Source of the DNA: Nitrospiraceae bacterium
Lineage (GTDB): Bacteria; Nitrospirota; Thermodesulfovibrionia; UBA6902
Length of the DNA stretch: 50,528 nucleotides
NCBI GenBank assembly: GCA_003599275.1
Contig: QZJG01000011.1
Coordinates: forward strand, 1 to 50,528
Reading direction: 5' to 3'
Part shown: piece after piece, positions 17,911 through 47,588 of the stretch
How positions within the stretch are numbered: the stretch's first letter is position 1
Layout of the letters: the number at the start of each line of letters is the position of its first letter
Notes under the pieces: model-generated
Database searches by the model: none
What the model was told of the DNA's origin: nothing
The model's input: only the letters and a program-made list of their open reading frames with translations
Made by a program: the position numbers and the translations under genes

Positions 17911-17995
17911 GATGTCATCGTGAAGAAAGACGAAACTGGCAACAAATGATGCGCTTGAATACAAATAGCTCATTCAGAGAAAATTCAATTAAGCC

Positions 17996-18113
17996 ATGCC
18001 ACGGTTAGACTGGATAGGACGCAAAGCCGTAGAGAACCACCACCTGCAGGTGCCGTTTCATTTGCTGAAGGAAGTCCCGGAGTTATCTGTGGGCGATCCG
18101 GGGAGCGGCAATG
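17996..18113 (+). pseudogene. N-terminal fragment of a type III Mod-like methylase
   Basis: The first 39 codons from the ATG at 17996 read MPRLDWIGRKAVENHH, then PFHLLKEVPELSVGDPGSGN. I recognise this as the N-terminal end of site-specific methylases of the type III Mod kind. After GSGN the expected NLLVQGDNLEAL continuation is lost and replaced by unrelated sequence. It is a remnant, not a gene. Confidence 0.55.
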
Positions 18114-18194
18114 CTTCAACTTCGCTCAACACAAGTCTGCTTGCGGAAGGCTACAACAGCAAGCCCTACTCCCATTCATACTTGAGTTGACCCG

Positions 18195-19647
18195 AAAACC
18201 CTGAATGATGCATATTATGACGGTGGAAGGAGATCAGGTGAGCCGAGCATCCTACGCTTTCTTGAACCGGCCGTTGGTACGGGGGTTTTCTTCTCAGCGC
18301 TCCTAAACTCTATTAACGGTCATTCAGTCAAGGAAGCCACAGGGGTTGAGCTTGATAACATTTATGCCGAAGTGGCCCGACGATTGTGGTCAGGGAAAGA
18401 GTTGACCGTGACCGTTTCCGATTATTTCGATTTTGTCCGCCGGAATGAGAACCAGTCCAGATTCAATTTGCTTTGTACCAATCCCCCGTATGTGCGGCAT
18501 CATCATATTGATCCGTCAGAAAAGCGAAAACTTCAGGGCGAGATTTTCAGTCGTCTTGGTATAACTGCAAGCGGTCTTTCCGGCCTCTATGTCTACTTTG
18601 TGCTTCTTTCACACGATATTCTGACGGACAACGCCATTGCCTCATGGTTAATTCCCAGCGAATTTTTGTTCGTTAATTACGGTAAAGCCCTTAGAGACTA
18701 TCTCTTGAACCACGTCACACTCCTGGACATTCACCAGTTCGACATCGAGGACGTTCAGTTCAATGATGCACTGGTATCGTCATGTGTCGTTACATACCGT
18801 AAGGCCAGACCGGCAAAGAACAGTCGGATCTTATACAGCTTTGGCGGGACCATGACCGAACCCCGTATGGAAAAGACCGTCGAGACCGCAGACCTTGATT
18901 CTTCCAATAAGTGGCTTTTCAGGAATGACAGCAACGGCAGCAACAGAGAGGAAAACGCAGTTCGGATCGGACAGTTGTTCGATATAAATCGCGGCCTTGC
19001 AACCGGCGCAAATTCTTTCTTTATCCTTGCTGAAGAGAAGGTCCGCGAGTACGACATCCCTCACGTCTTTCTGCGGCCGATACTGCCGAGTCCCCGCTTC
19101 CTTCGTGAAGCCATAATCACAGCGGACAAGGCCTCCTGACACTGCAAAGCGTCTTTTTCTTCTCGATTGCACTGAGGCTCCTGAAGTTGTGAAGAGTAGG
19201 TATCCCGGCCTGTGGGCATATCTTGAGTTGGGAAGGGCCCAGGGAGTAGCTGATGCGTATCTTTGCGGAAACCGGAAGGTCTGGTATTTCCAGGAGCGAC
19301 GGCAACCCGCCCTGTTCCTGGCTACATACATGGGACGGTCTGAAGGCGCAGATCGATGCCCGCTTCATTTTTACCTGAACCTTTCAAGGGCAGTGGTGTC
19401 AAATGTGTTTCTGAACCTTTATCCGAAGCCGTTTCTTGGTAAACTGCTTGAAGAGAACAATGACCGACCTGGCGAATTGTTGAAATCACTTCAGGCCATC
19501 ACCTGCACACAGGTGGTCGAGGAAGGCAGGTCCTACGGCGGAGGGCTACACAAACTTGAACCTCGTGAGATGGGAAACGTTTCCCTTCAGTCGCTCCCGG
19601 AATGGCTCGTGGTTGAGGCCGAAGAGCAATTGGCGCTGATACGATAA
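18195..19647 (+). pseudogene. Broken N6-adenine methylase (Eco57I-like)
   Basis: Bases 18195 onward encode LNDAYYDGG, then motif I as FLEPAVGTGVFFSALL, then motif IV as LLCTNPPYVRHHHID, a clear gamma-class adenine methylase. The frame ends at a TGA (about 19137) after ITADKAS. The protein sequence resumes in another frame from about 19150 (LFLLDCTEAPEVV..., LWAYLELGRAQGVADAYLC) to the stop at 19647. Thus at least one frameshift breaks the gene, and the true start is missing. The second part contains the substrate-recognition-like region. It is probably non-functional unless the break is a sequencing error. Confidence 0.75.
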
Positions 19648-33125: not shown

Positions 33126-34778
33126 TTAGCGTACCGCTTCGCGGGCGGCTTTGTCCTCACGCAGTCGTAAGAAAACCGGCTGTCTCATGATGCCGTCTTC
33201 GGTCCATCCTGCAAAAGCGACTTCGCAGACCATATCCGGCTTCACCCACGTGGCCTCAGTATTGGTCTTCGGCTCTGTTTTAAAGGGGCATTTTTTCTGA
33301 ATTAGGGGCTGCAGTTTATCGTATATTGCTTTCAGACTCTTTTCTCCGAAACCGCCTCCTGAATGACCGATGTATACAAGCTCGTCATCTTTGTATGTTC
33401 CCAGGACAAGGGAGCCAAAATATTTTCTGCTTCCCTCCGGCTCTGTGAATCCCGCGATCACGCCTTCCTGCGTGAGCCGTGTCTTCACCTTCAGCCACTC
33501 CCGGCTCCTTTTGCCCGGCTGGTAGACGCTTTGAGAATGTTTGGCAATGACACCTTCGAGCCCCCTTTCTTTCACGACATTGAAAAACAGGACACCATCT
33601 TCTCTAACGTGGTCGCTGAATTTTATTTTTGGTGAAGACGGGAGGATTTTTTTCAGGAGTTCTTTTCTCCTGAGCAGTGGCAAGCTTGTCATATCATGTC
33701 CCCGGAAGAAGAGGAGATCAAATACGTAGTAGAGCAGATTACCGCTTTTTGATTTCCGGTAATCCTGCAGCATCTGAAAATCCGGATGCCCCTGATCATC
33801 CACGACAACAAGTTCGCCGTCGAGGACAGCCTCAACCCCGAGTTTTCGCAGCGAGTCGGCAATAGGAGGAAATTTTTGAGTAAGTGAGATTTGGTTGCGG
33901 GAATAAAGCGAAACGTCTCCGTCCCTGATCTCGGCAATGGCACGGTAGCCGTCCCATTTCATCTCAAAGATCCAGTCCGGATGATCGAAGGGTTTTTTGA
34001 CCAAAGTCGCGAGCATGGGTTTTATGTTGTGCGGCATCGGCCTGACCGGCGCATCCTTCAGGTCTTCCTCTTCCAGTGCCTCACGCAGGCGGATATGTTC
34101 CATCTTTTTTTGTTTGAACGATTTCCCCGGCCCGGCTTCGGAAACTTCCTCCAGTGTCTTTCCGGATACTACGGAACGGTTTTCTTTTAAAATGGGCTTC
34201 TCGCCTGCGTACCGGTCTTTCTTCTTAAGGAGCAGCCACGACTTCTCGTCCTTCCGCATCCTCACGAGGGCGAATTCCCCCTGAAGCTTTTCCCCATCGA
34301 GGACAAACTTCAGATCTCCCTTTTTTAATCCCTCCCGCAGAAGCTTCTCACTTCCCTTTTTGTCTTTTGCAGAAGGGTGACGATACGCGCCCCTGTCCCA
34401 GATGATGACGCTTCCGGCGCCGTAATTGCCCTCAGGGATTACGCCTTCAAAATCTTTGTAATCAAACGGATGGTCCTCAACCATCATGGCGAGCCTTTTC
34501 AGGGATGGGTCCATTGAAGGACCCTTCGGCACAGCCCAGCTCTTCAGTACCCCGTCCAGCTCGAGCCTCAGGTCATAATGCAGGTTCCGCGCCGCGTGTT
34601 TATGAATAACGAAAATGAGATCGTCCCCTGGGGACAGTCTCGATTCGGAGCCTGTCCCGTGCACCGATGCGGGAACTTCGCTTCGCTTTGTCCGTAAATC
34701 AGGGACAGTCCCCTCAACCGGTTCCGGCTCGGGGGTTTTCCCGAATTTGCGCTTGGATTTGTATTCTTTTAATTTCAT
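33126..34778 (-). CDS. ligD: LigD-type ATP-dependent DNA ligase with 3'-phosphoesterase domain
   Basis: A 550-residue protein with two domains of bacterial NHEJ ligase D. The 3'-phosphoesterase domain (about residues 55-175) has HKHAARNLHYDLRLELDG and EDHPFDYKDFEGVIPEGNYG. The ligase domain (about 250-545) has the nucleotidyl lysine K274 in FEMKWDGYRA, motif III-like YYVFDLLF, motif IV EGVIAK and motif V EWLKVK. The polymerase domain is a separate gene at 38818-39723. The ATG at 34778 begins MKLKEYKSKRKFGKTPEP as expected; a longer ORF upstream runs through repeat DNA. No good Shine-Dalgarno is seen. Residues about 19-50 are an in-frame repeat insertion. Confidence 0.92.
   Translation of the reverse strand: MKLKEYKSKRKFGKTPEPEPVEGTVPDLRTKRSEVPASVHGTGSESRLSPGDDLIFVIHKHAARNLHYDLRLELDGVLKSWAVPKGPSMDPSLKRLAMMVEDHPFDYKDFEGVIPEGNYGAGSVIIWDRGAYRHPSAKDKKGSEKLLREGLKKGDLKFVLDGEKLQGEFALVRMRKDEKSWLLLKKKDRYAGEKPILKENRSVVSGKTLEEVSEAGPGKSFKQKKMEHIRLREALEEEDLKDAPVRPMPHNIKPMLATLVKKPFDHPDWIFEMKWDGYRAIAEIRDGDVSLYSRNQISLTQKFPPIADSLRKLGVEAVLDGELVVVDDQGHPDFQMLQDYRKSKSGNLLYYVFDLLFFRGHDMTSLPLLRRKELLKKILPSSPKIKFSDHVREDGVLFFNVVKERGLEGVIAKHSQSVYQPGKRSREWLKVKTRLTQEGVIAGFTEPEGSRKYFGSLVLGTYKDDELVYIGHSGGGFGEKSLKAIYDKLQPLIQKKCPFKTEPKTNTEATWVKPDMVCEVAFAGWTEDGIMRQPVFLRLREDKAAREAVR
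34624..34720 (-). repeat. In-frame repeat insertion within ligD
   Basis: The stretch holds repeated and inverted words (GGGGACAGTC, CCTGTCCC, GGGACAGTCCCC, GGGAACTTCGCTTCG) typical of intergenic palindromes. It encodes about residues 19-50 (EPVEGTVPDLRTKRSEVPAS and following) between the family segments KRKFGKTPEP and LIFVIHKHAAR, which are normally only a few residues apart. The frame is intact. Confidence 0.65.
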
Positions 34779-34800
34779 GTCGGGCAAAACAATATAATAT

Positions 34801-34855
34801 TTCCCTCCCCTTTGACGGGGGATGGTTAGGGTGGGGGGGGTCGCCCCTACATCAA
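34801..34855. repeat. GC-rich repeat upstream of ligD
   Basis: Contains TCCCTCCCCTTTGACGGGGG and ATGGTTAGGGTGGGGGGG, a repeat phrase recalled from many environmental genomes. It fills the space between ligD and the BON-domain gene. No gene is supported in 34779-34964. Confidence 0.5.
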
Positions 34856-34964
34856 TCATACCAGACTTCAAGTCGCTGGTTAGGGGAGGAAATAGGATCT
34901 GTGGCGTTTCACCTGTTAATGTACGGAATAGGCCAAATATGAACAAGCTGCGCCTCCTCCGAAG

Positions 34965-35279
34965 CTATTTTTTCTCTTCTACCTTCAAGAGACTTTTAAC
35001 GGACTTCACGCCTCTGATCTGCTTTATTTTACCTTCTATCCGTTCCCCGGTCTCTTCGCTGTTCACAAAGCCAGTAAGTACAACATCCCCATGCGTTGTG
35101 TCCACATTGATCTTCAGAAATTGTGCGTCCGGGTCTTTTACTATTAGCGCATTGGCTTCGGAGGTAATAGTTGCGTCATCGATCTTCTCTCCCGCTGTTT
35201 GTCCCGTCATTGAGGCACACCCGGAAAACAAAGCCGCTCCGAAGATCATCAATACTGTCAACAAAACAAAGTTCTTCAT
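34965..35279 (-). CDS. BON-domain lipoprotein (osmotically inducible OsmY-like)
   Basis: A 104-residue protein. The signal peptide ends in the lipobox LFSGC, so the mature protein is probably anchored to a membrane facing the periplasm. The rest is one BON domain: DDATITSEANALIVKDPDAQ, then INVDTTHGDVVLTGFVNSEE and IRGVKSVKSLL. BON domains bind phospholipid or other hydrophobic surfaces and occur in stress-induced OsmY-like proteins. The ATG at 35279 follows GGAGGAGACAC; a longer upstream ORF is not supported. Its promoter is a duplicated 86-bp element. A damaged copy of its 3' end is at 25931-26001. Confidence 0.9.
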   Translation of the reverse strand: MKNFVLLTVLMIFGAALFSGCASMTGQTAGEKIDDATITSEANALIVKDPDAQFLKINVDTTHGDVVLTGFVNSEETGERIEGKIKQIRGVKSVKSLLKVEEKK

Positions 35280-35304
35280 GTGTCTCCTCCTTTTTGCCGG
35301 ATGC

Positions 35305-35390
35305 TTGATCATCTGCCCTCGTTGTTGAAATATCGGACGATCATCGTCTCCGGTAAACCTAATTATTGCACAAAATATCTGACTGTCAAG
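35305..35390 (-). promoter_or_regulatory. Duplicated 86-bp promoter element, copy 1 (BON gene)
   Basis: These 86 bases match 37611-37696 at 82 positions, the four differences all being transitions. On the minus strand both contain TTGACA (here 35389-35384), 16 bases, AATAAT (35367-35362), a strong sigma70-type promoter, followed by about 55 conserved bases of untranslated leader. The conservation of the leader as well as the promoter suggests shared control of the BON gene and the PA2779-like gene. Confidence 0.75.
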
Positions 35391-35456
35391 TAAGCGAATT
35401 GCCTCAAGCAAACATATGATGAAAGCATATCGTTGCCTCAAAATAATTGACAGCTC

Positions 35457-35485
35457 CCTTATTGGGTGATAGCATTTAAAAAACA
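35457..35485 (+). promoter_or_regulatory. Promoter of the small secreted protein gene
   Basis: TTGACA (35457-35462), 17 bases, TAGCAT (35480-35485) with an extended-minus-10 TG at 35477-35478. It shares the TTGACAGC and CTTATTGGG words with the element at 26445-26473. It lies 45 bases before the ATG at 35530. Confidence 0.55.
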
Positions 35486-35529
35486 TATATCGCATAAGCC
35501 ATTAGTGAAGAAGAACAGGAGAATAACAG

Positions 35530-35862
35530 ATGAGCGTATCTAAAGCTATATTTTGCGCTTTGGTGTTTATGTTATGCGCCGGGTTCCATGCAGGCGCAGT
35601 CAATCAGGCTATTTGTCGTCCTGGATCTAATGTGGAGCTTTATCCCGGCGGCTCACTTAAATCGTGCGTTCTGAATGACTATTTTCGCGTAGACGGTATC
35701 GAATGCAATAAGCAAAGCCCGATTAACTTTTACGAAGACGGCCTGATTGAATCGTGTATCCTTTCTAAAGATACATCGATAAGCGGTCAAAAGTGCAAAC
35801 AACTGGCGCCGATTTACTTCTACGCGACAGGGGAATTTAAATCATGTGTAAAACAGGAGTAA
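35530..35862 (+). CDS. Small secreted repeat protein (MORN-like, cysteine-containing)
   Basis: A 110-residue protein with a signal peptide (about 1-23, ending FHAGA). The mature part has three short repeats of the form Y/F-x-x-G-x-L/F-K/E-S-C (ELYPGGSLKSCVL, NFYEDGLIESCIL, YFYATGEFKSCVK), separated by I-x-C-N/K-x-x-x-P linkers. This looks like a MORN-type toxin-antitoxin-repeat-like beta hairpin ladder with paired cysteines. It is probably periplasmic or exported. No function can be named. An AGGAGAA-like Shine-Dalgarno precedes the ATG. It is divergent from the BON gene. Confidence 0.75.
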   Translation: MSVSKAIFCALVFMLCAGFHAGAVNQAICRPGSNVELYPGGSLKSCVLNDYFRVDGIECNKQSPINFYEDGLIESCILSKDTSISGQKCKQLAPIYFYATGEFKSCVKQE

Positions 35863-35958
35863 TAGCCCCTATATTTCTTCAAAATGTAGTTGACGTGGTG
35901 TTAACATTGTGACATACAGGTATATTAACCCTCAGCAAGAATGATGAAAGGATTAAAC

Positions 35959-36396
35959 ATGAGAAAAAACAAACACGTAATTCTTATCATAGCCTTATTG
36001 ACGGCCCTTCAGATGCTTGCAGTCACCGGCTGCTATCGCAAAACGCCGGAACAAAGGGCAGAGCATGTAGTCCGGCACCTGGTTGAAACCCTGGAACTGG
36101 ATGCCGATCAAAGGGCGAAGCTGGAAAAGATGAAGGAAACTTTTCTTGCCAAAAGATCAGACATGATGAAGATGCGGCATGAAGCCATGAATGACCTCAA
36201 TGAGATGATGTTGAGCCCTCAGCTCGATCAGGCGAGGTTAGACGCGCGCACGGAGAAAATCCAGGCGCAAACGAGCGACCTGGTCCGGTTCATTTCCACG
36301 GAGTTTACGGAGCTCCATGATATGCTGACTCCTGAGCAGAGGAGCAAGCTGGTAGAGATGATGAATAAATATGAACAACGAGCTCATAGCTGGTAA
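35959..36396 (+). CDS. Spy/CpxP-like periplasmic lipoprotein
   Basis: A 145-residue protein. The signal peptide ends in the lipobox AVTGC. The mature part is helical and charged, with two LTXXQ-type motifs (LELDADQRAKLEKMKE and LTPEQRSKLVEMMNKYEQRA). This pattern is that of Spy/CpxP-family periplasmic chaperones and of Zn-resistance proteins of similar build. It would hold unfolded proteins or sense envelope stress. The ATG at 35959 is preferred over ATGs at 35941/35944 because AAAGGA (35948-35952) is correctly spaced before it. Its end overlaps the region of a HiPIP remnant on the other strand. Confidence 0.82.
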   Translation: MRKNKHVILIIALLTALQMLAVTGCYRKTPEQRAEHVVRHLVETLELDADQRAKLEKMKETFLAKRSDMMKMRHEAMNDLNEMMLSPQLDQARLDARTEKIQAQTSDLVRFISTEFTELHDMLTPEQRSKLVEMMNKYEQRAHSW

Positions 36397-36464
36397 GCTC
36401 CGTATCGGTATTCAAGCTGTCCCGACCGAGCACTGCTTCTATACCTGCCGGACCATACACGAAC

Positions 36465-36535
36465 GAGGCAACATGTGTCTGCCTTTCCTGCTCAGTAAGT
36501 CCGGGAGCATCGGTGCATGGATCTCCGGCGGCAGG
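36465..36535 (-). pseudogene. Remnant of a second HiPIP gene
   Basis: On the minus strand this stretch reads PAAGDPCTDAPGLTEQERQT, then HVAS, closely matching the linker of the intact HiPIP (PAAGDPCADISGLTEQEKQT). The DNA at 36465-36535 aligns with 26149-26221. The signal peptide and cluster-binding cysteines are lost. The remaining 36397-36629 shows no gene. Confidence 0.7.
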
Positions 36536-36629
36536 GGAGGAAGGGAGAATACTGCATGGGTATCTTGTTTGCGCAGCTATTCTCCTTTGCTCCTGATTAC
36601 CGCAGCCATCCGGGCTTCCCGGTCACTGT

Positions 36630-37148
36630 CTACCATTTAAATCCTATCCCGAGGTTGTAAATGAAACGTCCGTCATCAAAAGCCTCGTCAGCCTCCTCGG
36701 CCTTGTCAAAGAGGAAATCGTAACCGACAGAAATAAGGATGAACGTTGTATCATTTACGAAGGCCTTTATCCCGGCCTCCGGACCGGCAATAAAAGACTC
36801 CTCGACACTTTCTCCATACAGATAGCCGACAGTTACCCCAAGAAACGGTCGCCAGTTCTCAAGGTCGATGTTGAAGTCTGCGCCCACGCGGGTGGAGCCG
36901 TTCCAGTCGCTACCGCCCGGTATATCGACTACGGCAACGTTTTGACGGAAGACACCCTCCAGATATTTACTGTAAAAATAGCCCAGCCCGATATCTGCGG
37001 AAAAGATCGTATTGTCGAAACTGTTGTCACTCGTGCCCGATCCGCTTAGTGTAAATTCCATGTCGCCCGTTTTATATTCAGCGGAAGCGGCGGTGAAAGG
37101 AACAATGATTAAACATAGAATTGTCAAAATAAAAATTTTTCGGTACAT
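36630..37148 (-). CDS. Outer-membrane beta-barrel protein (OmpW/porin-like, small)
   Basis: A 172-residue protein. A signal peptide (about 1-23, ending AASA) precedes alternating hydrophobic strands such as FSADIGLGYFYSKYLEGVFR, RPFLGVTVGYLYGESV and FILISVGYDFLF. It ends in the aromatic terminal strand FIYNLGIGFKW, whose last residue W is typical of outer-membrane barrels recognised by BamA. About eight strands are likely. The ATG at 37148 follows AAAAGGAGAC; an upstream in-frame ATG at 37193 is rejected. The substrate is unknown. Confidence 0.8.
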   Translation of the reverse strand: MYRKIFILTILCLIIVPFTAASAEYKTGDMEFTLSGSGTSDNSFDNTIFSADIGLGYFYSKYLEGVFRQNVAVVDIPGGSDWNGSTRVGADFNIDLENWRPFLGVTVGYLYGESVEESFIAGPEAGIKAFVNDTTFILISVGYDFLFDKAEEADEAFDDGRFIYNLGIGFKW

Positions 37149-37266
37149 AACTGTCTCCTTTTGTAATTTAAAGTTGTTAATAAGCGGTCCCATTGTTTAT
37201 TTTCATATCATCAAACCTCCTTTCAAAAGCCCTGCAATAAATATCACAGTGTTAGAGCCATGTCCC

Positions 37267-37611
37267 TCAGTGAACCAGCCCAAGAATACCGGCAACCTCG
37301 ACATTCCCACCGACCTTCAATTCGTCAAGCTGTACAGCAAGGTCATGAAGCTGATCGTCGCTGAGACCGGCCGGTTTCCCCTTGACCTCTTCGGCTGTAA
37401 AACCTAACTGCGTCAATCTTTCGCCTACCATTTTTGACTCGATAACACTCTGGATCTTCCGAAGGTCTTCTGTCCGATGACCGCCTTCAGGACCTATCCT
37501 GGATGGCGCAAATCCGGCACACACGTTTTGGGCAGAGCCGATTATTAATATTGCCATAGCCAGATAGATAGCCAGCCATTTTGTCGTCTTTAGCTTCATA
37601 ATGTCTTTCAT
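37267..37611 (-). CDS. PA2779-family small exported protein
   Basis: A 114-residue protein with a signal or membrane helix (about 12-32, ending NVCAG). The C-terminal part IQSVIESKMVGERLTQLGFT, then EEVKGKPAGLSDDQLHDLAVQ and ELKVGGN fits the PA2779 family, which is usually a short envelope protein of unknown role. The ATG at 37611 or the internal ATG at 37599 could start it. It is transcribed from copy 2 of the 86-bp duplicated promoter element directly upstream. Confidence 0.72.
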   Translation of the reverse strand: MKDIMKLKTTKWLAIYLAMAILIIGSAQNVCAGFAPSRIGPEGGHRTEDLRKIQSVIESKMVGERLTQLGFTAEEVKGKPAGLSDDQLHDLAVQLDELKVGGNVEVAGILGLVH

Positions 37612-37696
37612 TGATCATCTGCCCTCGTTGTTGAAATATCGGACGATCACCGTTCCCGGTAAACTTAATTATTGCACAAAATATCTGACTGTCAAG
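37611..37696 (-). promoter_or_regulatory. Duplicated 86-bp promoter element, copy 2 (PA2779-like gene)
   Basis: TTGACA (37695-37690), 16 bases, AATAAT (37673-37668) on the minus strand. The whole block from 37611 to 37696 matches 35305-35390 at 82 of 86 positions. It reaches the start codon of the PA2779-like gene, so copy 2 carries promoter plus the complete leader. Confidence 0.75.
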
Positions 37697-37782
37697 GCGG
37701 GGTACCCTTTTCCCTCATGTTCAAGACCTTGCCGGGATGATTATCTATTTAAGAAAAAGACGGAAATCTTGGACCTCCAAAG

Positions 37783-38391
37783 CTATGCGGGATAGTATCC
37801 GGAAGTATCGTTTTTTTTACCGGAGGCAGCCTGTATGCCTGATTCCGGTCTCTCGCTCAGTAATTCCTTCAGCAGCACGATACTTCTTGCGAAGATGCCT
37901 GTCTTGTGGTTCGAGATGAGCTCAAAGATATTTTCTTCCACAATCGGCCGGTCGGGATCAAGGGCCGTGTCTTTCGGCCCCAAGTCTTTGGGCCCCTTAT
38001 TTTTATCGGTGAATTCATATTGACGCAGCCGCGTTTTCCTGTCCCCGGCAAGGCCGTCCAGAAAATCTACGAGTCCGTCTGTCGATTCAACGCTCTTGCG
38101 GTCATAAGTCCCGGTCATCCCGATATGCTCTTCAAGCAGACTGACACGCACAGATCGAATTGCCCCGGCCAGCTCTTCATCGGAGGCTTCCTCCCCGGCC
38201 TCCCAGGCCCCCCGAAGGAGCTTGACCGTACTGTCGAATTGCCAACCCGCGATCAGGATGAAATGCCGGGCCTTTTGGGCGGCCCGGTAGAACTCACGAT
38301 AGTAATTTCGTCCGTCTATAAGAAGGCCGGTTTTGCGGACGCTGAACAGGTCCATGCAGTTGTGCCCGGCTTTCAATATCCTTTTCAACAT
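37783..38391 (-). pseudogene. N-terminal piece of a phospholipase D-like (PLD-VTT) gene
   Basis: The 202-codon frame begins MLKRILKAGHNCMDLFSVRK, then TGLLIDGRNYYREFYRAAQK and FILIAGWQFDSTVKLLRG. This is the N-terminal part of phospholipase D-family proteins that often carry a C-terminal VTT membrane domain. No HxKxxxxD catalytic motif is present, and after about residue 125 the sequence becomes repeat-like (KGPKDLGPKDTA). A VTT fragment lies head-to-head on the other strand at 38462-38800. I read the locus as a gene broken by inversion and deletion. 37697-37782 shows nothing. Confidence 0.6.
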
Positions 38392-38461
38392 CGGTCGCCT
38401 CGCATATTTGTAGAAACTTAATATTTGAGCAGCTTTTGCTCCCGATCCATTCGGGGCCGAG

Positions 38462-38800
38462 GATGGCGTTTACCTGGGACAGGCGTTCTCCGCTGCCTGG
38501 TCTACCGATCCGCTGCGGGCAAGGTCGATATTCAGGATCGTTCCTCTCCTGCCTTTTTTCGTCGTTAATTATCTTTCCGGCATCGCGCGCATCTCGACAT
38601 GGACATTTATCTGGACGACATTCCTGGGAATGCTGCCGGGGACCCTTGTGTGCACCTTTGCGGGGCGTCAACTCAGCGTAATAACGACTCCTGACGAAAT
38701 ATTCTCCGTAAAAGTCGTCATGTCGCTCATCCTGCTGGCACTGCTGATACTCCTTCCTCCTGCAGCTTATCATATAAAAAATTTGAGGAATTCCCTTTGA
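38462..38800 (+). pseudogene. VTT (TVP38/TMEM64) domain fragment
   Basis: The open frame from 38462 to TGA 38798-38800 reads FRIVPLLPFFVVNYLSGIAR, then ISTWTFIWTTFLGMLPGTLV and CTFAGRQLS, the C-terminal half of a VTT/SNARE-associated membrane domain. It has no start codon or ribosome-binding site of its own. It points away from the phospholipase D N-terminal piece on the minus strand. Confidence 0.65.
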
Positions 38801-38817
38801 TTGCTTAAAACTTCACC

Positions 38818-39723
38818 TTATAAATAATGCGGCATCTTCTGTTCTTTTGTGAGTACCTCTTGAAAAAGGTCTCCATTTTTCCCGACCCTGCTCACGGCTT
38901 CCGAATGCATGATCAGCAGTTTTTCGGGATCGCGCTGCCTTGTCAAAATTTCCAGCTCTTCCCATTCAAGAGGGAATGATACAGTCGGTTTCTCCCGTGC
39001 GCGCAGGGAGTAGATGCAGATCATTGTCTTTGCGGAGTCGTTTTGGGACCAGTTGATGAAGACCTTTTTAATCCGTGATTCCTTCGCCATTTTTGCAGTG
39101 ACGATTTCAGGATAGTTGCGCTGAAGGACCTCTGCCACGGCCTTTGAAAATCTTTTTGTGTCCTCAAAGGTCGCCTCTTTACGGTTCAAAGGGACATATA
39201 CATGCAGTCCTTTTTTTCCAGAAGTTTTCGCATAACTTTCAAGCTGCATTTGTAAAAGCAGGTCCCTAAGGATCAGGGCCACCTTTGCGCAATCCAGGAT
39301 GTTTGCCTTATCACCGGGATCAAGATCGAAGACAATGGAATCGGGCGTCTCAGGAGAACCGGCCTTGGCCAATGGCACATGCAATTCAAGAGACGCAAGG
39401 TTCTCCACCCATATGAGCGTCTCCAGATCATTGACAAGGCAGACCGTCATTGGTCCTTCATTATGGATCACCTTCGCTGTTTTCACCCAGGCGGGGCGGT
39501 GCACAGGACAGCGCTTCTCGAAAAAGAAATCCTTTTCCGTTCCGTCGGGGTAGCGCTTCAAGGTCAGTGCCCGGTCTTTCAAATGCGGCAGGATGGAGTC
39601 CGCGATCCGGCGGTAATATTCAAGGACATGTGCCTTCGTGAAACCATAGGAAGGATAAAGGTCCTTATTCAGGTTTGACAAGGAAAGTCTTCTCCCGGCA
39701 GCCTCAACGATCTTTTTGCTCAC
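38818..39723 (-). CDS. Stand-alone LigD polymerase domain (NHEJ primase-polymerase)
   Basis: A 301-residue archaeo-eukaryotic primase-type polymerase (LigD PolDom). It has DLYPSYGFTKAHVLEYYRRI, RYPDGTEKDFFFEKRCP and the metal-binding pair D133 and D135 in VFDLDPGD. TSGKKGLHVYVPL carries H174. The third catalytic aspartate, expected in a VDW-type motif (as in M. tuberculosis PolDom), is Asn here: N224 in VFINWSQND. The enzyme fills gaps at double-strand breaks with ribonucleotides. It starts with GTG at 39723, overlapping the ku stop by three bases (GTGA), so it is coupled to ku. Confidence 0.9.
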   Translation of the reverse strand: MSKKIVEAAGRRLSLSNLNKDLYPSYGFTKAHVLEYYRRIADSILPHLKDRALTLKRYPDGTEKDFFFEKRCPVHRPAWVKTAKVIHNEGPMTVCLVNDLETLIWVENLASLELHVPLAKAGSPETPDSIVFDLDPGDKANILDCAKVALILRDLLLQMQLESYAKTSGKKGLHVYVPLNRKEATFEDTKRFSKAVAEVLQRNYPEIVTAKMAKESRIKKVFINWSQNDSAKTMICIYSLRAREKPTVSFPLEWEELEILTRQRDPEKLLIMHSEAVSRVGKNGDLFQEVLTKEQKMPHYL

Positions 39724-40526
39724 CGGTGCTCTTTCACCTTGCGCATGCTCTCCTCCAGCACTGCGACCAGGTCGACCACTCCTTCCTCCACTTCTTCCTC
39801 TATTTCAGGGGCCTCCACAGTACCTTTGTCCTTCGCCTTCTTCTCTAAAAGTTTCATGATCTTTTTCCGGCGTTCGTCCGCATATTTATCAGGATTAAAG
39901 TCGGCGGTCATTTCTTTAATAATTTTTTTCATGCGGCTTTTCTCTTCGGATTCAATCTTTTCTTCCCGGGAACGGGTCGTACCGACTTTCGACAAGAGGT
40001 CTTCATCGGGAAGTATTTCTCCGCTGTAGTGAAGTGTGATCAGGGACAGCGCCCCATCCGTGCTCTTGACCGCAACGAGATACTCACGCTCCCGCAGCAC
40101 GAACTTTGCGAGCCCGGCCTTGTTCGTCCGGCGCATCACCTCGACCAGCAGCCGGTAAGCCTTTTCGCCCCCTTTGGAAGGAACAAGATAATACGGGTGA
40201 TCATAATAGACAGGGGCCACATCCTTAATATCGATGAACTCAAGTATCTCAATCGTGCGGCTTCTTTCCGGAGATACGGATTCAAGTTCCTTTTCCGTTA
40301 TCACGATATATTTGTCGGGAGTGATCTCATAACCCCTGACTATCTCATCCGGCGGGACCAGCTTTTCTTCTTTCGGACAATACATCCTTCTTGCGAGGGG
40401 AGAATAATCCTTGCGGTGAAGCATTCGAAAGGATACACGCCCGGTCTCGACAGCCCTGACCAGTTTTACCGGTATTGCAACAAGACTGAAACTGACTGTC
40501 CCATTCCATATTTCCTGTAACGCCAT
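39720..40526 (-). CDS. ku: DNA end-binding protein Ku (copy 1)
   Basis: A 268-residue bacterial Ku. The opening MALQEIWNGTVSFSLVAIPVKL, then FRMLHRKDYSPLARRMYCPK and EFIDIKDVAPVYYDHPYYL follow the Ku core beta-barrel pattern. A charged C-terminal tail, rich in K and E, would recruit LigD. Ku binds broken DNA ends as a dimer. The ATG at 40526 follows GAGGAG; an upstream TTG is less likely. It is coupled to the LigD polymerase gene through a GTGA overlap. A hairpin separates it from the second ku. Confidence 0.93.
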   Translation of the reverse strand: MALQEIWNGTVSFSLVAIPVKLVRAVETGRVSFRMLHRKDYSPLARRMYCPKEEKLVPPDEIVRGYEITPDKYIVITEKELESVSPERSRTIEILEFIDIKDVAPVYYDHPYYLVPSKGGEKAYRLLVEVMRRTNKAGLAKFVLREREYLVAVKSTDGALSLITLHYSGEILPDEDLLSKVGTTRSREEKIESEEKSRMKKIIKEMTADFNPDKYADERRKKIMKLLEKKAKDKGTVEAPEIEEEVEEGVVDLVAVLEESMRKVKEHR

Positions 40527-40547
40527 CTCACTCCTCAAAAATTCTCA

Positions 40548-40625
40548 CCACAGAGGTCACAGAGTATACGGAGAAAAATAAAATATTTTAAGTCTCTCTC
40601 TGTAACCTCAGTGTTCTCTGTGGTT
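40548..40625. repeat. Hairpin repeat between the two ku genes
   Basis: CCACAGAGGTCACAGAG at the left pairs imperfectly with CTCTGTAACCTCAGTG and TTCTCTGTGG at the right, around an A/T-rich loop. It is of the same style as the hairpins in the ribosomal operon at 1178-1249 and 3714-3785. Confidence 0.7.
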
Positions 40626-40647
40626 AATTTTTCTTTCATTTTACACT

Positions 40648-41418
40648 TCACGCGACCTTCTTCATACTCGCCTCAAGAACCTCAAGAAGCTTGTCCGGCG
40701 CCGTGGGTTTCAAATGCCTGGGCCGCAGGACCGTGATTTTTTCTCCCCGTGCTTTTTTATCTATCAGGGCCTGCAGCTTTTTTTGATGTTCGTTCTCGAA
40801 TTTCTGAGGCTGGAAAGACGCTGACAACTGGCTGATCAGATCACTTGCGATCTTCAATTCTTTTTCAGACACCGGAGCTTTCTGCAGTTCGAGAGATTTT
40901 ACCGCTATCACTTCATCGGCATATCGCAGGGTGCTCAGGCAGAGGACCTTCCCGTTTATCTGCAAGGCCCCTAAATAGGACCGTCTTCTCATGGTCCAGG
41001 TGCATATCCCCGCCGTGCCGGTTTCCTTCAATGCCCCGGCAAGCGCGTTATAACCTTTCAAGGTTGTATCCGGCTCAAGGTAGTACATGCGTTCAAGGAA
41101 GATGGGATCGATCTGTGCGGTCTTGACGAATTCATGGACTTCGATCATCCGGCCATCTTCGGGTCCGGCTTGTTCGAGCTCTGCCGGATCGATGAGGATA
41201 TATTTTCTGTCCTCTAATTCAAACCCTTTGGCCCATTCCTCTGCGGGTACAGGCACTTTTTCATACGCACAGATCATCTGCTGGTGCAATTTCACGTGAT
41301 CACGCTTGTGCAAAAGGTGAAACTGGATACGGTCTTCCTTGACTGCGGTATGCAACTTCACGGGCACATTGATGTTGCCGAATTGGATATATCCTTTCCA
41401 GAGCGTCCTTCCCGACAT
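40648..41418 (-). CDS. ku: DNA end-binding protein Ku (copy 2)
   Basis: A 256-residue second Ku, diverged from copy 1. It opens MSGRTLWKGYIQFGNINVPV, followed by FHLLHKRDHVKLHQQMICAY and EFVKTAQIDPIFLERMYYLE. The central segment KETGTAGICTWTMRRRSYLG and the tail KLLEVLEASMKKVA fit the family. Two Ku paralogues could form a heterodimer, as proposed for some bacteria such as Sinorhizobium. It has its own promoter (41558-41585), while ku copy 1 and the polymerase follow in the same direction. Confidence 0.93.
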   Translation of the reverse strand: MSGRTLWKGYIQFGNINVPVKLHTAVKEDRIQFHLLHKRDHVKLHQQMICAYEKVPVPAEEWAKGFELEDRKYILIDPAELEQAGPEDGRMIEVHEFVKTAQIDPIFLERMYYLEPDTTLKGYNALAGALKETGTAGICTWTMRRRSYLGALQINGKVLCLSTLRYADEVIAVKSLELQKAPVSEKELKIASDLISQLSASFQPQKFENEHQKKLQALIDKKARGEKITVLRPRHLKPTAPDKLLEVLEASMKKVA

Positions 41419-43613: not shown

Positions 43614-44133
43614 ATGAAAGAAATAATTCCTGTTGAAATTATAGATCGAAAAATATATCTGATACGCGGTCATAAAGTCATGCTTAGCTCTGACCTTGCA
43701 GAGTTATTACGGTGTTGTGCCAAAAGTTCTGACACAGGCAGTTAAGAGAAACATCGAACGGTTTCCCGCAGATTTCATGTTTCAGCTTTCAAATTAAGAG
43801 TTTGTCAACTTGAAGTCACAAATTGTGACTTCAAGTTGGGGTGGTATTCGACGTGCTACTCCATATGCCTTCACTGAACAAGGGGTGGCGATGCTCTCAA
43901 GTGTTTTACGCAGCAAGCAAGCTGTTCAAGTGAATATTTCCATAATGCGGGCATTCGTCAATTTAAGGGAATTGCTTTCTACCAATAAGGAACTGGCACG
44001 TAAACTTGAGACTCTTGAAAAGAAATATGACACTCAATTTAAAATTGTCTTCGACGCGATACGGCAATTAATGACGCCGCCGGAGCCGAAGAAGAAGGCG
44101 CCGATAGGATTTAGAAGGGGAAAGGATGTTTAG
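43614..44133 (+). pseudogene. ORF6N-domain protein, inactivated
   Basis: The first frame from ATG 43614 reads [20 protein letters not shown], then [11 protein letters not shown]. One extra T near 43707 shifts the frame; the protein then continues as [20 protein letters not shown] and DFMFQLSN. An in-frame TAA (43795-43797) interrupts before [16 protein letters not shown], and the final part reads [19 protein letters not shown] to the end. This is an ORF6N (KilA-N-like) protein, a family found in phages and accessory islands with a presumed DNA-binding role. Two lesions make it a pseudogene. A TTG at 43810 could start a 107-residue C-terminal product. Confidence 0.82.
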
Positions 44134-44287: not shown

Positions 44288-44342
44288 AATAATATACTTT
44301 AAATATATTATTATTGACATATGACTTAAATTCTTATAACAT
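44288..44342 (+). promoter_or_regulatory. Promoter with 9-bp palindrome for the zinc-ribbon/methylase/PIN operon
   Basis: AATAATATA (44288-44296) and TATATTATT (44304-44312) form an exact 9-bp inverted repeat with a 7-base centre, directly before TTGACA (44314-44319). TAACAT (44337-44342) follows at 17 bases, or TATAAC (44335-44340) at 15. The predicted transcription start falls within a few bases of the ATG at 44349, so the first mRNA may be leaderless. The stretch 44134-44287 holds only a possible 28-codon ORF (from 44202), which I do not support. Confidence 0.55.
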
Positions 44343-44348
44343 GAGAGC

Positions 44349-44531
44349 ATGCCGATTGTTACATTGCAAGGGTTCAAATGCTACCGGTGCGATTACGAGT
44401 GGTTGCCGAGGAAGGGAACGAAGAACAGGGAGAAAACGAAGGTGTGCCCGAACTGCAAGAGCCCTTATTGGGATGTGCCGAGAAGGCGGCAAAGGCCAGA
44501 TGTAAAGGATAGCAGAGGCAAATCGCAATGA
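44349..44531 (+). CDS. Small zinc-ribbon protein, first gene of a methylase-PIN operon
   Basis: A 60-residue protein with CYRC (C11, C14) and CPNC (C33, C36), separated by the basic segment DYEWLPRKGTKNREKTK, and followed by KSPYWDVPRRRQR. This CxxCxxxW-x-PR ... CPxCxSPYWDxPR pattern is found in small zinc-ribbon proteins of unknown role. The basic composition suggests nucleic-acid binding. There is no good Shine-Dalgarno and the promoter ends 7 bases upstream, so leaderless translation is likely. Its TGA overlaps the methylase ATG (ATGA, 44528-44531). It may be the regulator, or an antitoxin for the PIN protein; both are inference. Confidence 0.75.
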   Translation: MPIVTLQGFKCYRCDYEWLPRKGTKNREKTKVCPNCKSPYWDVPRRRQRPDVKDSRGKSQ

Positions 44532-47062
44532 ATGTAAAAACATTGAGCAGAGCGAGACAAGAGGTGATGACTAAAAGGGTGCTCGCCAATATTGAAGGTG
44601 CATTTATAGATATAGGCTACAAACGTCATCTTATCAGGAAAGACTATCAGTATGCAGATTTGTTCTCGAATGGCGGTTCAGGTGTACCACTTCGCACCGT
44701 CGGGCGTGCCGTTTTTGGACAAGAGCCTATCGATTATCGTTCAGCCTGTTTCGGTATCCAATTGGCTGAATCTGGGAGGCCGTCCGACTTAGTTGTCAAG
44801 GAATTAAGAGCCTTTGGCGCACCAATGATATTCATCATCAACAACGGAGTTACTGAACGTTGGACCGTCACCGAGAAAGAGCCGCTACTTCAAGACAAAT
44901 ACAAAACTGCTACTTTGCATAATGTCATTATTAAGAACAAAAGCACGTGGAAGCCACAGGCCATAATAAGGGCAAAAACCGGTTTCGCAAAGCCCGATCC
45001 TGTGCAATTGGATTTCGTCGATATTGGGCTACTTCCCGCTTTGGAGCATGAAGCTGCAAAAAAAATAGATAGTTTATTCGGTGTCCTCCTTTACCACGCC
45101 GAGGAAGAATTCAAGAAACGCAATTTAACGTTTGATGCCTCAATTATTTTCAGGGTTGTATTTAGTCTGTTAGCTGCCAAGTTGCTCAAAGACCGGAATA
45201 TCTTAGGTTCAGGGGCCATTGACTTCTCAAATCCTCAGTCTGCATTGGAGGCTGTGAGAAATCATTATGGCCCTTCACTATTGGCCACAGTCTCAAAATT
45301 ACCGATACCGACTCTAAATTCCATATCGCAAGAAATCGGGAAAAGCTTCTCTTTAAGAAATATCTCAGTTGATACTCTAACGTACATATATGAAAATACG
45401 TTTGTTTCGCGCAAAAGCCGCAAAGAGCTGGGCATACATAGCACACCAGCGTATGTTGCTGACTACCTTCTTTCTCAAGTACCGTTGGAGGATCTGCCAC
45501 GAACTCAATGGCAGACCCTCGATCCTATGTGCGGCCACGGGATTCTACTTATAGCCGCCATGCGAAGGATGAGAGATTTGTTGCCGCAAAGTTTCGGAGG
45601 GCGCCAGCGTCATGAATTCTTTATGAAAAATCTACGCGGTATAGAGATTGAACCATTTTCGATTGAAGTTGCCCGCATGTGTCTGATGTTGGCCGATTTC
45701 CCAGAGTCTAACGGGTGGTCGATCACCCAAGATGATGCCTTTGCTGACAAGGTCATTGAAAACGCTTCGAAGAAATCTATGATTCTGATTGCAAATCCGC
45801 CCTTTGAAAAAATTAAGATTAATGATAAGGCTGTTCCCAAACCACTGGAGTTCTTAAGAAGATCCCTCCCGAATTTGCCGGAAGGGGCACTAATTGGCTT
45901 AGTCTTGCCACGCTCCTTTTTGGACAGCACTGCTTACAAAGAAGAAAGGAAATTTCTTCTGAACAACTTTGAAATAAATGCCATTACAACATTGCCTGAC
46001 AAGATATTTCTTTACTCGGAGGCCGAAACCGCAATCGTCAGCGCACGAAAAAGGGAACCGCAAAAGTCAAGGAATTTCCCTTATACAGAAGTCCGGAGTG
46101 AGCACAGGGAGGCTTTCAAGACGAAATCCGCTTTTACATGGCGCGATAAAGCACCTCAATCCTATTTCTACGGAACCAAAGAAAACAGACTGATAGTTCC
46201 CTTCTTGAAGGAGGTGTGGGATCGTATAGGGAGCTATCCTATCCTGCGCGAAGTAGCACTGATCAAAACAGGTATCAGGTATAAAAGCAATGTTCCAGAG
46301 AATCTGCTCGTGCAGGATTCCGAATTTCCCGATTCAAGAAGAGGAATCCTCAATGTGACGCCTGGCTTTTACCAATATATAGCCATCGACACAGTTTATA
46401 TGTCCACCAAGAAGGAACATATGCAAAGCACCGCCATAAAATGTCCATGGGATATTTCTAAGGTAATATTGCCTGCTGCGCGCATGTCGAGAGGCCGTTG
46501 GCGCTTCGCTGGAGCTATTGACACACAGAAAAGGGTATTCAGCAGAAGGTTCTACGGAGCCTGGCCTAAGTCTTCAATCAGTGTTTACACGCTGGCCGCA
46601 ATATTGAATTCACCAGTCGCGCAGGCTTTCATTTATTGCAATGTTTCAGAAAAAGATATTCTGATCAAGACGTACGAGGACATTCCCGTTCCCAAGATAG
46701 AAGATCTTCAGAAAAATGAGGCGATCATTGCCAATCGAGTAAGACGATATTTAGCGGAATTAAAGAGCGCACCTCGACAAGCATACAAAACGCTTTTGGA
46801 AATCGATGCCGAGATTTTGAAGCTTTATCATTTGCCGCCGAAGCTCGAACGGCAACTATTGGACATCTTCTGGGGTCAAATGCGACGTGTCCCGTTTGAG
46901 TTTAAAGGGTATATACCTCCTGAAATGGCCTCTTGGATTCCTCTGCATATCTATTTGTCTAATGCTTTTCGGGAGGGAACGGTCGAAAAAATCCTGGAGC
47001 GCATTCCTGTCATAAAAGATAAGAAATTCGTGGACTACCTGAAAGGCTTAGGTACGGAATAA
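44528..47062 (+). CDS. N6-adenine DNA methyltransferase linked to a PIN nuclease
   Basis: An 844-residue protein. Motif I is LDPMCGHG (331-338), an unusual variant with M and H in the glycine loop. Motif IV is NPPF (423-426) in ILIANPPFEKIK. The helix IEIEPFSIEVARMCLMLADF (about 375-395) holds the SAM ribose-binding acid. The N-terminal 250 residues include FGIQLAESGRPSDLVVKELR and IFIINNGVTERWTVTEKEPL, similar in layout to HSDR_N-like domains and to the N-terminal part of the methylase at 14107-17241. The C-terminal part (about 560-844) is probably target recognition. It begins inside the zinc-ribbon stop codon and ends one base before the PIN gene. No nuclease motif is visible in this chain. 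Confidence 0.85.
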   Translation: MNVKTLSRARQEVMTKRVLANIEGAFIDIGYKRHLIRKDYQYADLFSNGGSGVPLRTVGRAVFGQEPIDYRSACFGIQLAESGRPSDLVVKELRAFGAPMIFIINNGVTERWTVTEKEPLLQDKYKTATLHNVIIKNKSTWKPQAIIRAKTGFAKPDPVQLDFVDIGLLPALEHEAAKKIDSLFGVLLYHAEEEFKKRNLTFDASIIFRVVFSLLAAKLLKDRNILGSGAIDFSNPQSALEAVRNHYGPSLLATVSKLPIPTLNSISQEIGKSFSLRNISVDTLTYIYENTFVSRKSRKELGIHSTPAYVADYLLSQVPLEDLPRTQWQTLDPMCGHGILLIAAMRRMRDLLPQSFGGRQRHEFFMKNLRGIEIEPFSIEVARMCLMLADFPESNGWSITQDDAFADKVIENASKKSMILIANPPFEKIKINDKAVPKPLEFLRRSLPNLPEGALIGLVLPRSFLDSTAYKEERKFLLNNFEINAITTLPDKIFLYSEAETAIVSARKREPQKSRNFPYTEVRSEHREAFKTKSAFTWRDKAPQSYFYGTKENRLIVPFLKEVWDRIGSYPILREVALIKTGIRYKSNVPENLLVQDSEFPDSRRGILNVTPGFYQYIAIDTVYMSTKKEHMQSTAIKCPWDISKVILPAARMSRGRWRFAGAIDTQKRVFSRRFYGAWPKSSISVYTLAAILNSPVAQAFIYCNVSEKDILIKTYEDIPVPKIEDLQKNEAIIANRVRRYLAELKSAPRQAYKTLLEIDAEILKLYHLPPKLERQLLDIFWGQMRRVPFEFKGYIPPEMASWIPLHIYLSNAFREGTVEKILERIPVIKDKKFVDYLKGLGTE

Positions 47063-47063
47063 G

Positions 47064-47588
47064 ATGGAGGGGAAATGTTATCTGTTAGACACTAATGTGC
47101 TCGGATATCTCGTGGAGTTAAAATCGGGCTCCCACACTCCTGAAGGCAAAGCTTTGGAGAAGCGGCTCGAAGAGATCAAAGGTAAAAATATCTTCATCTG
47201 TTGCATCACAATTGGCGAGATCGAATACGGGCTCAAAATCGCTCCTGACAAGGATTCTACAAAGCAAGGTTTGGCAAAACGGTTGATTGAAGAGTTTTAT
47301 AGTTATCCCGTTGATAACGATATCGCTCGTGATCAGTACGCGACTCTTCGAGCAAAACTTTTTCAACGGTATGCACCAAGAGATAAACGCCACAGGAACA
47401 GTGATAAGAAAAGAGTAGAAGAATGGATAGATCCCACAACATCGAAGGAACTGCAGGTACAGGAAAACGATATCTGGATTGCCGCTGTAGCGATGGCATA
47501 CAATTTTGTGTTAGTGACGCATGATAAAATGAATGCTATAAAGTCAGTTGTGGGTGAAGACCTGACAATCGTAGATTGGGCAAAGTAG
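47064..47588 (+). CDS. PIN-domain nuclease (VapC/FitB-like) in the methylase operon
   Basis: A 174-residue PIN protein with all expected acidic residues: D9 in YLLDTNVLGYL, E52 in ITIGEIEYGL, D136 in ENDIWIAAVA and D154 in VLVTHDKMN. These form the metal site of VapC-type ribonucleases. It is longer than usual VapC (about 130) because of an insertion of about 25-30 residues (residues 102-130: RYAPRDKRHRNSDKK and following). The ATG is one base after the methylase stop, so synthesis is coupled. No classic VapB antitoxin (AbrB, RHH or Phd) is adjacent. The zinc-ribbon protein, or methylation by the middle protein, may be the control. Confidence 0.88.
   Translation: MEGKCYLLDTNVLGYLVELKSGSHTPEGKALEKRLEEIKGKNIFICCITIGEIEYGLKIAPDKDSTKQGLAKRLIEEFYSYPVDNDIARDQYATLRAKLFQRYAPRDKRHRNSDKKRVEEWIDPTTSKELQVQENDIWIAAVAMAYNFVLVTHDKMNAIKSVVGEDLTIVDWAK

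Follow-up and report, generated by a model that had tools for sequence, protein, structure and literature searches.

A DNA adenine methylase and a PIN nuclease in a Nitrospiraceae bacterium form a candidate methylation-coupled toxin-antitoxin-like module

Introduction

RNase toxins associated with DNA modification have a described precedent in PrrC/EcoprrI, in which the toxin is encoded with, and silenced by, a DNA modification system (PMC3710099, PMC3506569, and PMC12707154). Makarova et al. (2012) describe immunity systems that are coupled to toxins without apparent typical antitoxins and propose immune components as the inhibitors (PMC3506569). Anantharaman et al. (2013) report that the HEPN toxins of restriction-modification (RM) loci occur as fusions with nucleases, helicases, and further ATPases, but not with methylases (PMC3710099). 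A further precedent is Panacea (PanAT), in which an antitoxin protein has swapped toxins during evolution (PMC10440598).

Here we analyze an operon within a 50,528-nucleotide stretch of DNA from a Nitrospiraceae bacterium (contig QZJG01000011.1; "the window" hereafter). Like PrrC/EcoprrI, the operon and its relatives place a putative RNase toxin beside a DNA modification system. However, PrrC belongs to the ABC-HEPN proteins and is kept silent by HsdMSR, a type Ic RM system, whereas the loci described here combine PIN, RES, or HNH proteins with a single-chain methylase that has no recognizable nuclease signature, and in the RES version the methylase tail is itself the antitoxin domain. Toxin swapping by an antitoxin is shared with PanAT, although the scaffold there is the Panacea domain and here a DNA methylase. 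As in Xre-RES, MbcTA, and ParST, a RES toxin lies directly 3' of an Xre-MbcA-ParS-type antitoxin domain, but this domain forms the C terminus of a 924- to 947-aa adenine methylase. As in VapBC, the putative PIN toxin has four catalytic acidic residues; its partner, in contrast, is the methylase, with no separate VapB-type antitoxin gene. Finally, type IIG/IIL RM enzymes (DrdV, MmeI, BpuSI) share the single-chain layout, in which an alpha/beta domain at the N terminus is followed by a helical linker, the adenine methylase, and the recognition part, whereas the methylase studied here lacks a recognizable PD-(D/E)xK motif in its N-terminal domain and adds an extra tail and a separate toxin gene. 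Among the literature entries listed, judged by titles and abstract openings, none described a methylase-antitoxin fusion, and no existing name was found for the methylase-PIN pair; the original prediction had put forward the three-gene operon as a candidate undescribed module.

Results

The window encodes, in one tight operon on the forward strand (as are all features below), a 60-aa zinc ribbon protein (44349..44531), an 844-aa N6-adenine DNA methylase with a recognition part and a C-terminal tail (44528..47062), and a 174-aa PIN-domain nuclease, the proposed toxin (47064..47588). The first two reading frames overlap by ATGA, and a single base (47063), with no gene between, separates the methylase from the PIN gene. 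These junctions, the methylase motifs LDPMCGHG and NPPF, and PIN residues D9, E52, D136, and D154 were as described in the original prediction. No hsdS or hsdR ORF was found in the operon. The methylase scored far under the cut-offs for BREX PglX (34.7 versus 400 bits for NF033451 and 13.4 versus 500 bits for NF033452) and MADS MAD2 (32 versus 720 bits for NF047738), and no other BREX or MADS parts were detected among the operon's ORFs. The proposal that the layout falls outside standard RM, BREX, and DISARM systems agrees with what we found, a conserved methylase-toxin module for which a role in addiction or abortive infection is plausible. Adjoining the operon, outside the module, is a broken ORF6N-domain gene (43615..44133; ORF and Pfam).

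The methylase matched N6_Mtase (7.1e-14) and MmeI_Mtase (7.8e-9) in Pfam. Together with the structure model and its alignment with DrdV, these matches indicate that methylase and recognition domain share one chain, as in type IIG/IIL enzymes; DrdV aligned over residues 3..768 of the model. The structure alignment used 57 chosen sequences. Pfam, the DrdV alignment, and conservation place the catalytic domain at aa 281-545 (45368..46162), where G336, N423, P424, and P425 were invariant among the 68 methylases examined, of 74. The predicted target-recognition part follows at aa 546-777 (46163..46858), on the basis of a sub-cut-off TaqI_C match in Pfam and comparatively fast divergence: in all six of the window comparisons listed, it was the least conserved of four methylase regions. 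At the N terminus, modeled secondary structure, the DrdV alignment, and a motif count define an alpha/beta domain (aa 29-126; 44612..44905) that is placed like a type IIG nuclease domain and has no recognizable PD-(D/E)xK signature. A motif search found no conserved (D/E)xK in this domain, with any [DE]xK within alignment columns 60-117 occurring in 7 of 68 methylases. D44 and, further along, K150 were conserved in the 68 sequences, and an atypical nuclease site is thus possible.

The PIN protein matched the Pfam PIN family (5.4e-12) and, at 49 bits against a cut-off of 140, an NCBIfam VapC family (E of 7e-13). Proteins of this long type span ∼165 to 197 aa in complete loci, and the four acidic residues were invariant in 55 of 55 aligned. 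We scanned the proteins encoded in the partner position with Pfam in 68 of 75 loci; the contigs in G009, G062, and G299, apparently the same as those of L025, L083, and L022 because their lengths are equal, were counted once. Left out were loci with a broken PIN (L023, L040), a contig ending in the methylase (L030, L035, L074, L087), or a methylase fragment (L090), and two partial PINs were kept (L034, cut by a contig end; L072, the first ORF of a broken gene). Fifty-eight partners were PIN proteins, six were RES, and three were HNH, with a single partner giving no PIN, RES, or HNH match at an E value of 0.001. In a phylogenetic tree with partner labels assigned from downstream ORFs, built without L090 and without L030 and L087, whose cores were too short, partner type and methylase tail type changed together in four clades.

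Genes adjoining stand-alone RES toxins were Xre-MbcA-ParS antitoxins by Pfam. When two of these antitoxins were used as queries, the six RES-type methylases ranked 1 to 6 among 74, with a best E value of 1e-21. These methylases are 924 to 947 aa long, apart from 1053 aa in L069, which has an over-long start. One RES-type tail of the six (L084, from Shinella; 181 aa) passed the Pfam cut-off, and a profile built from three such tails matched no sequence in the PDB. On this homology, the methylase C terminus is identified as the RES antitoxin where the partner is RES. Tails of the short-PIN class showed weaker likeness to stand-alone antitoxin genes (E of 0.004 to 0.02; three of four plasmid matches of the stand-alone short PIN examined), suggesting an antitoxin role there as well. 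For one HNH-type tail, no stand-alone homologues were found in plasmids.

In the window itself, tail swaps in relatives, the structure model, and covariation led us to propose the C-terminal tail (aa 779-844; 46862..47059) as the antitoxin of the PIN protein. The model shows a loose stretch followed by four short helices, and the Pfam scan gave this tail no family match of its own. Tail and PIN covaried with a partial correlation of 0.40 across 55 of 59 PIN-labelled loci (L023, L034, L040, and L072 left out). From its position and this covariation, we infer that the tail neutralizes the adjacent PIN. When plasmids were searched for long-type PINs that stand alone beside a small antitoxin, 12 weak cyanobacterial VapC-like matches emerged, and the gene preceding one of these (L099) matched no window-type tail. 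The original prediction was correct that no separate VapB-type gene is present, but it did not mention the partner-specific C-terminal tail of the methylase; a complete lack of an antitoxin is therefore probably the wrong reading.

The architecture of the methylase and its comparatively fast-diverging recognition part would also fit restriction-modification, with the PIN protein acting as the restriction nuclease on unmethylated DNA and the methylase protecting the host; the HNH-domain proteins in the same slot of three relatives point the same way. However, that slot holds RES enzymes in six loci, with antitoxin-type tails, and the PIN protein resembles VapC-type RNases. RES enzymes are not known to be DNA nucleases. 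We regard restriction as unlikely.

The zinc ribbon protein has paired cysteines (C11-x2-C14 and C33-x2-C36) and matched Pfam only below cut-off (Zn_ribbon_8, E of 0.013). Among the 75 loci, its gene was present in eight, all from the window's clade (the window, L021, L022, L024, L025, L026, L031, and G062), and the genome held two other weak matches (E of 0.06 and 0.39). A small helix-turn-helix-like gene replaces it in 45 of 74 relatives. Considering the ORF, the Pfam match, and the same gene in relatives, the protein is probably the operon's regulator. Comparison of the zinc-ribbon loci also revealed an AT-rich inverted repeat, TAATATA-N7-TATATTA (44290..44310), as a candidate operator, and TTGACA (44314..44319), whose position is kept in most of these loci, as a candidate -35 box. 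In six of the eight (the window, L021, L022, L025, L026, and L031), TTGACA was located at -205 to -214 relative to the methylase start. The repeat occurred in its exact form in the window, L022, and L025, each time 24 nt 5' of TTGACA; L026 carried a different perfect repeat and the remaining four loci none. Perfect 7-7-7 repeats arose in 37 of 2,000 shuffles of the window's 420-bp stretch. Because the exact repeat is found in just three of eight loci, it points only weakly to an operator.

The antitoxin of a PIN toxin could instead be the zinc ribbon, replaced in relatives by the small helix-turn-helix-like protein, leaving the methylase as passenger or regulator. The first place in the operon is typical of many antitoxins, and the ribbon gene recurs in those eight loci. 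Nevertheless, within the window's own clade the PIN is intact where the ribbon was not found (L020, L028, L029) or is eroded (L027), an unrelated gene occupies that place elsewhere, and toxin type is tracked by the tail, not by the first gene. This arrangement is therefore improbable, and the zinc ribbon, suggested as antitoxin in the original prediction, was set aside in that role. Of the predicted trio, the methylase-PIN pair is conserved, but the full set with the zinc ribbon is restricted to this clade.

The distribution of the pair is patchy. Among 101 near relatives, the window's own genome included, a full-length gene was present in two, and in one more the gene was split. In the window's phylum, a PIN match (E of 1e-5) was detected in 9 of 295 genomes and lay directly 3' of this methylase in 7, two of these on contigs that show no more of the methylase than its final 155 and 261 aa. 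A search with five aligned relatives recovered 71 loci in the genome_contigs collection and none in viral_contigs; single-protein scans of both confirmed no close relatives. Three relatives covering over 80% of the query were found on plasmids, and four phage records held partial methylase matches only. Other defense-type genes were seen near three members (L014, L016, L017; no systematic count).

The methylase remains open despite a broken PIN in L023, L040, and L072, as might be expected if the pair had no toxin function and tuned gene expression, with the methylase marking DNA and the PIN processing a specific RNA. Exchange of the partner for RES and HNH argues against such tuning, as do the patchy distribution and the three plasmid-borne members, and we consider it quite improbable. 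Chance neighbors, or hitchhiking within a defense island as the three members near defense-type genes might suggest, are contradicted by the near-constant methylase-PIN spacing, the pairing kept across many phyla, and the pairing counts, and can be dismissed with little hesitation. The window's genome (88.6% complete) has nine PIN matches in 3.05 Mb, against PIN in 58 of 68 partners, which indicates that the pairing is not due to chance. The methylase-PIN pair is conserved and widespread.

Discussion

We favor, with reasonable but not high confidence, a toxin-antitoxin-like module in which the tail of a site-specific methylase is the antitoxin and a VapC-like PIN RNase the toxin, freed when the methylase fails. 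Its support at the sequence level comprises the conserved pairing, the intact active-site residues of the PIN proteins, the partner swaps with matching tail swaps, and the homology of the RES-type tails to stand-alone RES antitoxins. Under this model, the first gene would encode a small regulator, a zinc ribbon here and, in many relatives, a protein resembling MerR or another helix-turn-helix type; the second, an N6-adenine methylase that is site-specific and built like type IIG/IIL enzymes, its N terminus without a recognizable nuclease signature and its tail acting as antitoxin; and the third, the matching toxin, in the window a VapC-like PIN RNase. The methylase tail would keep the PIN nuclease inactive until the methylase was inhibited, depleted, lost, or occupied by unmethylated invading DNA. 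Once freed, the PIN would probably cut tRNA or another RNA, and growth would stop. This RNA target and trigger are our suppositions; firing upon inhibition or loss of the methylase would perhaps parallel PrrC, and gating of the nuclease by methylation, as originally suggested, is possible.

More tentatively, and with the balance of our judgment slightly against it, such loci may represent widespread, unnamed methylation-coupled suicide modules, in which a type IIG-like methylase minus its nuclease serves as a chassis with an exchangeable C-terminal antitoxin that matches a PIN, a RES, or possibly an HNH effector, and viral inhibition or loss of the methylase arms the toxin. In the RES version, the methylase chain itself carries a recognizable antitoxin domain, and a change of partner goes with a change of tail, which makes the idea of immunity-suicide coupling directly testable. 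If this reading is true, DNA marking would be tied to a programmed arrest of growth that needs no restriction nuclease, and the module may guard cells against viruses.

Conservation of the methylase-partner pair

Conservation of the methylase-partner pair extends well outside the window. An ORF check bore out the three ORFs of the original prediction exactly as described: a 60-aa protein (44349-44531) with four cysteines arranged as a CxxC...CxxC ribbon, whose Pfam matches were all sub-threshold; an 844-aa N6-adenine methylase (Pfam; 44528-47062); and a 174-aa PIN-domain protein (Pfam; 47064-47588). For the methylase, PADLOC ranked mad2 and its generic type I/II methylase models highest; it returned zero matches for the zinc ribbon and PIN proteins. 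Because the best NCBIfam match of the PIN protein, a VapC family whose entry names tRNA(fMet) as its target (E 7e-13), scored 49 bits versus a cut-off of 140, the identity of the RNA target would be a guess. Directly 5' of the operon lies a broken ORF6N-domain gene (43615-44133; by eye, frame lost near 43715 and stop near 43796), the open C-terminal part of which matches the PADLOC candidate PDC-S05 (E 3e-26).

A full-length methylase gene was detected in 2 of 101 relatives searched, counting the window's own genome (G000 and G009); a third carrier, G062, has it divided between the ends of two contigs. Searching plasmids added three relatives at 30-32% identity, from Agrobacterium and Sinorhizobium (annotated methylase, then PIN protein) and Rhizobium (945-aa methylase, then RES-domain protein). 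A search of genome_contigs with an alignment of five relatives yielded 71 loci, many of them metagenome bins; phylum labels in the tree listing were Nitrospirota, Nitrospinota, Planctomycetota, Thermodesulfobacteriota, Myxococcota, Pseudomonadota, Acidobacteriota, Verrucomicrobiota, and Binatota. Adding the window and the three plasmid loci gave a set of 75. The partner scan left out five of these (contig end inside the methylase, or methylase fragment only) and two more, L023 and L040, for a broken PIN gene. The 68 partner proteins scanned comprised 58 PIN (partial in L034, cut by a contig end, and L072, broken), 6 RES, and 3 HNH proteins, and one protein that matched nothing at E 0.001. Searching from the PIN side, we examined 295 genomes belonging to the window's phylum and detected matches at E 1e-5 in nine. 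In seven (G000, G009, G062, G129, G158, G251, and G299) the PIN gene lies directly behind the methylase, of which the contig holds only the end in G129 and G158; the other two matches were weak (E 6e-10 and 7e-6), with different upstream genes.

The Agrobacterium copy (L014, 2523-9978) has a DEAD/DEAH helicase on one side and, on the other, a gene with the annotation Shedu SduA-domain protein. Adjoining the G009 copy (L017, 6637-9130) are a reverse transcriptase, a SLATT_5 protein (Pfam), and, by eye, an exonuclease-like ORF, possibly a reverse-transcriptase defence system.

The first gene is variable

Conservation of the whole trio, on which the original prediction hinged, held for the widespread methylase-PIN pair but not, outside the window's clade, for the zinc ribbon. 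The ribbon is present in the window, L021, L022, L024, L025, L026, L031, and G062. L027 has an eroded copy, and none was found in L020, L023, L028, L029, or L030. In 45 of 74 relatives, its position is taken by a small gene whose product is similar to one of a set of eight seeds, and 32 of these 45 share the four-base overlap seen in the window. Neither gene was found in the first position in 23 loci, three of which have too little upstream sequence. Among the seeds, Pfam MerR_1 matched above cut-off in L043, L059, and L076 and just below it in L015, and was unmatched in L014, L016, L039, and L073, so "MerR-like" is valid for only part of them. The simplest reading is that the first gene encodes a regulator.

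Tail type follows partner type

The methylase C-terminus after residue 778 (the tail) differs in length among partner classes with zero overlap: 63-79 aa in 59 PIN loci, 94-105 aa in three HNH loci, 118 aa in the two loci whose PIN protein is shorter, and either 158 or 177-181 aa in six RES loci. When 72 methylase cores, tails excluded, were placed in a tree, each of the four minority classes formed one group (support, 97 to 100). The tree has long branches, with L086 the greatest concern and unsure in placement. Five changes of the PIN label were counted, one of them at L035, whose contig stops before the partner, leaving four partner changes. PIN was probably the ancestral partner. The HNH proteins in the toxin position (L059, 8640-9269; L062, 4104-4718; L086, 8625-9236) accompany methylases with their own tail type; these loci may represent either a genuine restriction form of the module or a third class of effector.

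The methylases of the two short-PIN loci, L079 and L089, retain the PIN-type tail pattern plus about 45 extra residues. Of four plasmid matches to the short PIN, three were fetched (L096, L097, and L098). The gene 5' of the short PIN in L098, which lacks a Pfam match, matched L079 and L089 among 74 methylases (E 0.004 and 0.022; E 9e-5 and 0.002 against their tails alone), the next best standing at E 10; for the corresponding genes of L096 and L097, none of the 74 fell below E 0.5. These matches are only suggestive of a relationship between the short-PIN tail and the gene preceding the stand-alone short PIN.

The window's own tail (residues 779-844) had no family match. In the AF2 model, which has a mean pLDDT of 88.5 and a pTM of 0.83, it begins as a loose stretch and continues as four short helices. 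Across 55 PIN-type loci, tail distance correlated with PIN distance (partial r 0.40, a value reached by 0 of 2000 permutations) after removal of the other three methylase regions, a procedure that does not fully remove shared ancestry; values were 0.37 for the N-terminal domain (0 of 2000 permutations), 0.10 for the recognition part, and -0.05 for the catalytic part. We therefore draw on the matching of tails to partners, plus the RES-type and short-PIN tails, to propose that the window's tail neutralises the PIN protein.

Broken genes bear on this antitoxin role in both directions. In three loci the PIN gene is broken and the adjoining methylase gene open, which is compatible with an antitoxin role but also with simple decay. 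In G062 the methylase is interrupted and the PIN gene intact, which counts against the antitoxin reading, though the C-terminal 718 aa of the methylase remain open. The break, at about residue 102, falls over two contig ends (L019, 3778-4141; L018 end), each of which carries unrelated sequence past it, the pattern expected from an inserted element.

The methylase body resembles single-chain restriction-modification enzymes

Fold matches of the methylase included CamA, BrxX, M.BseCI, type I methylase subunits, and type IIG/IIL enzymes. DrdV aligned across residues 3-768 of the model; the N-terminal domain therefore occupies the position of the nuclease domain in such enzymes. No PD-(D/E)xK signature was recognisable in this domain, but an unusual active site is possible because D44 and K150 are conserved. 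The recognition part was the least conserved of four methylase regions in all six window comparisons printed, as expected with changing DNA specificity. The family may descend from a single-chain restriction-modification enzyme that lost its nuclease.

Two other loci of the window were noted. At 14107-19139, a second, unrelated N6 methylase (1044 aa; PADLOC type IIG, E 8e-55) is followed by a 222-aa protein, for which Pfam gave nothing at E 1e-5, and by a partial type II methylase ORF of 255 aa, possibly a decayed restriction-modification locus. At 33126-41418, a LigD-type ligase (Pfam) neighbours two ORFs that, by eye, we take to be Ku-like; together they may form a bacterial end-joining cluster in which the Ku gene is duplicated.

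A proposed mechanism

We propose that the antitoxin-bearing methylase and the toxin would act like a type II toxin-antitoxin pair in which the methylase serves as sensor. By analogy with PrrC/EcoprrI (PMC3710099, PMC3506569, PMC12707154), candidate triggers may include anti-restriction proteins, operon loss, or unmethylated DNA. Among the matches listed by a full-text literature search, with subscription papers mostly outside its scope, no description of such a methylase-toxin module was found. Read as a hybrid of toxin-antitoxin system and restriction-modification guard, the module has a fair chance of meriting a class of its own.
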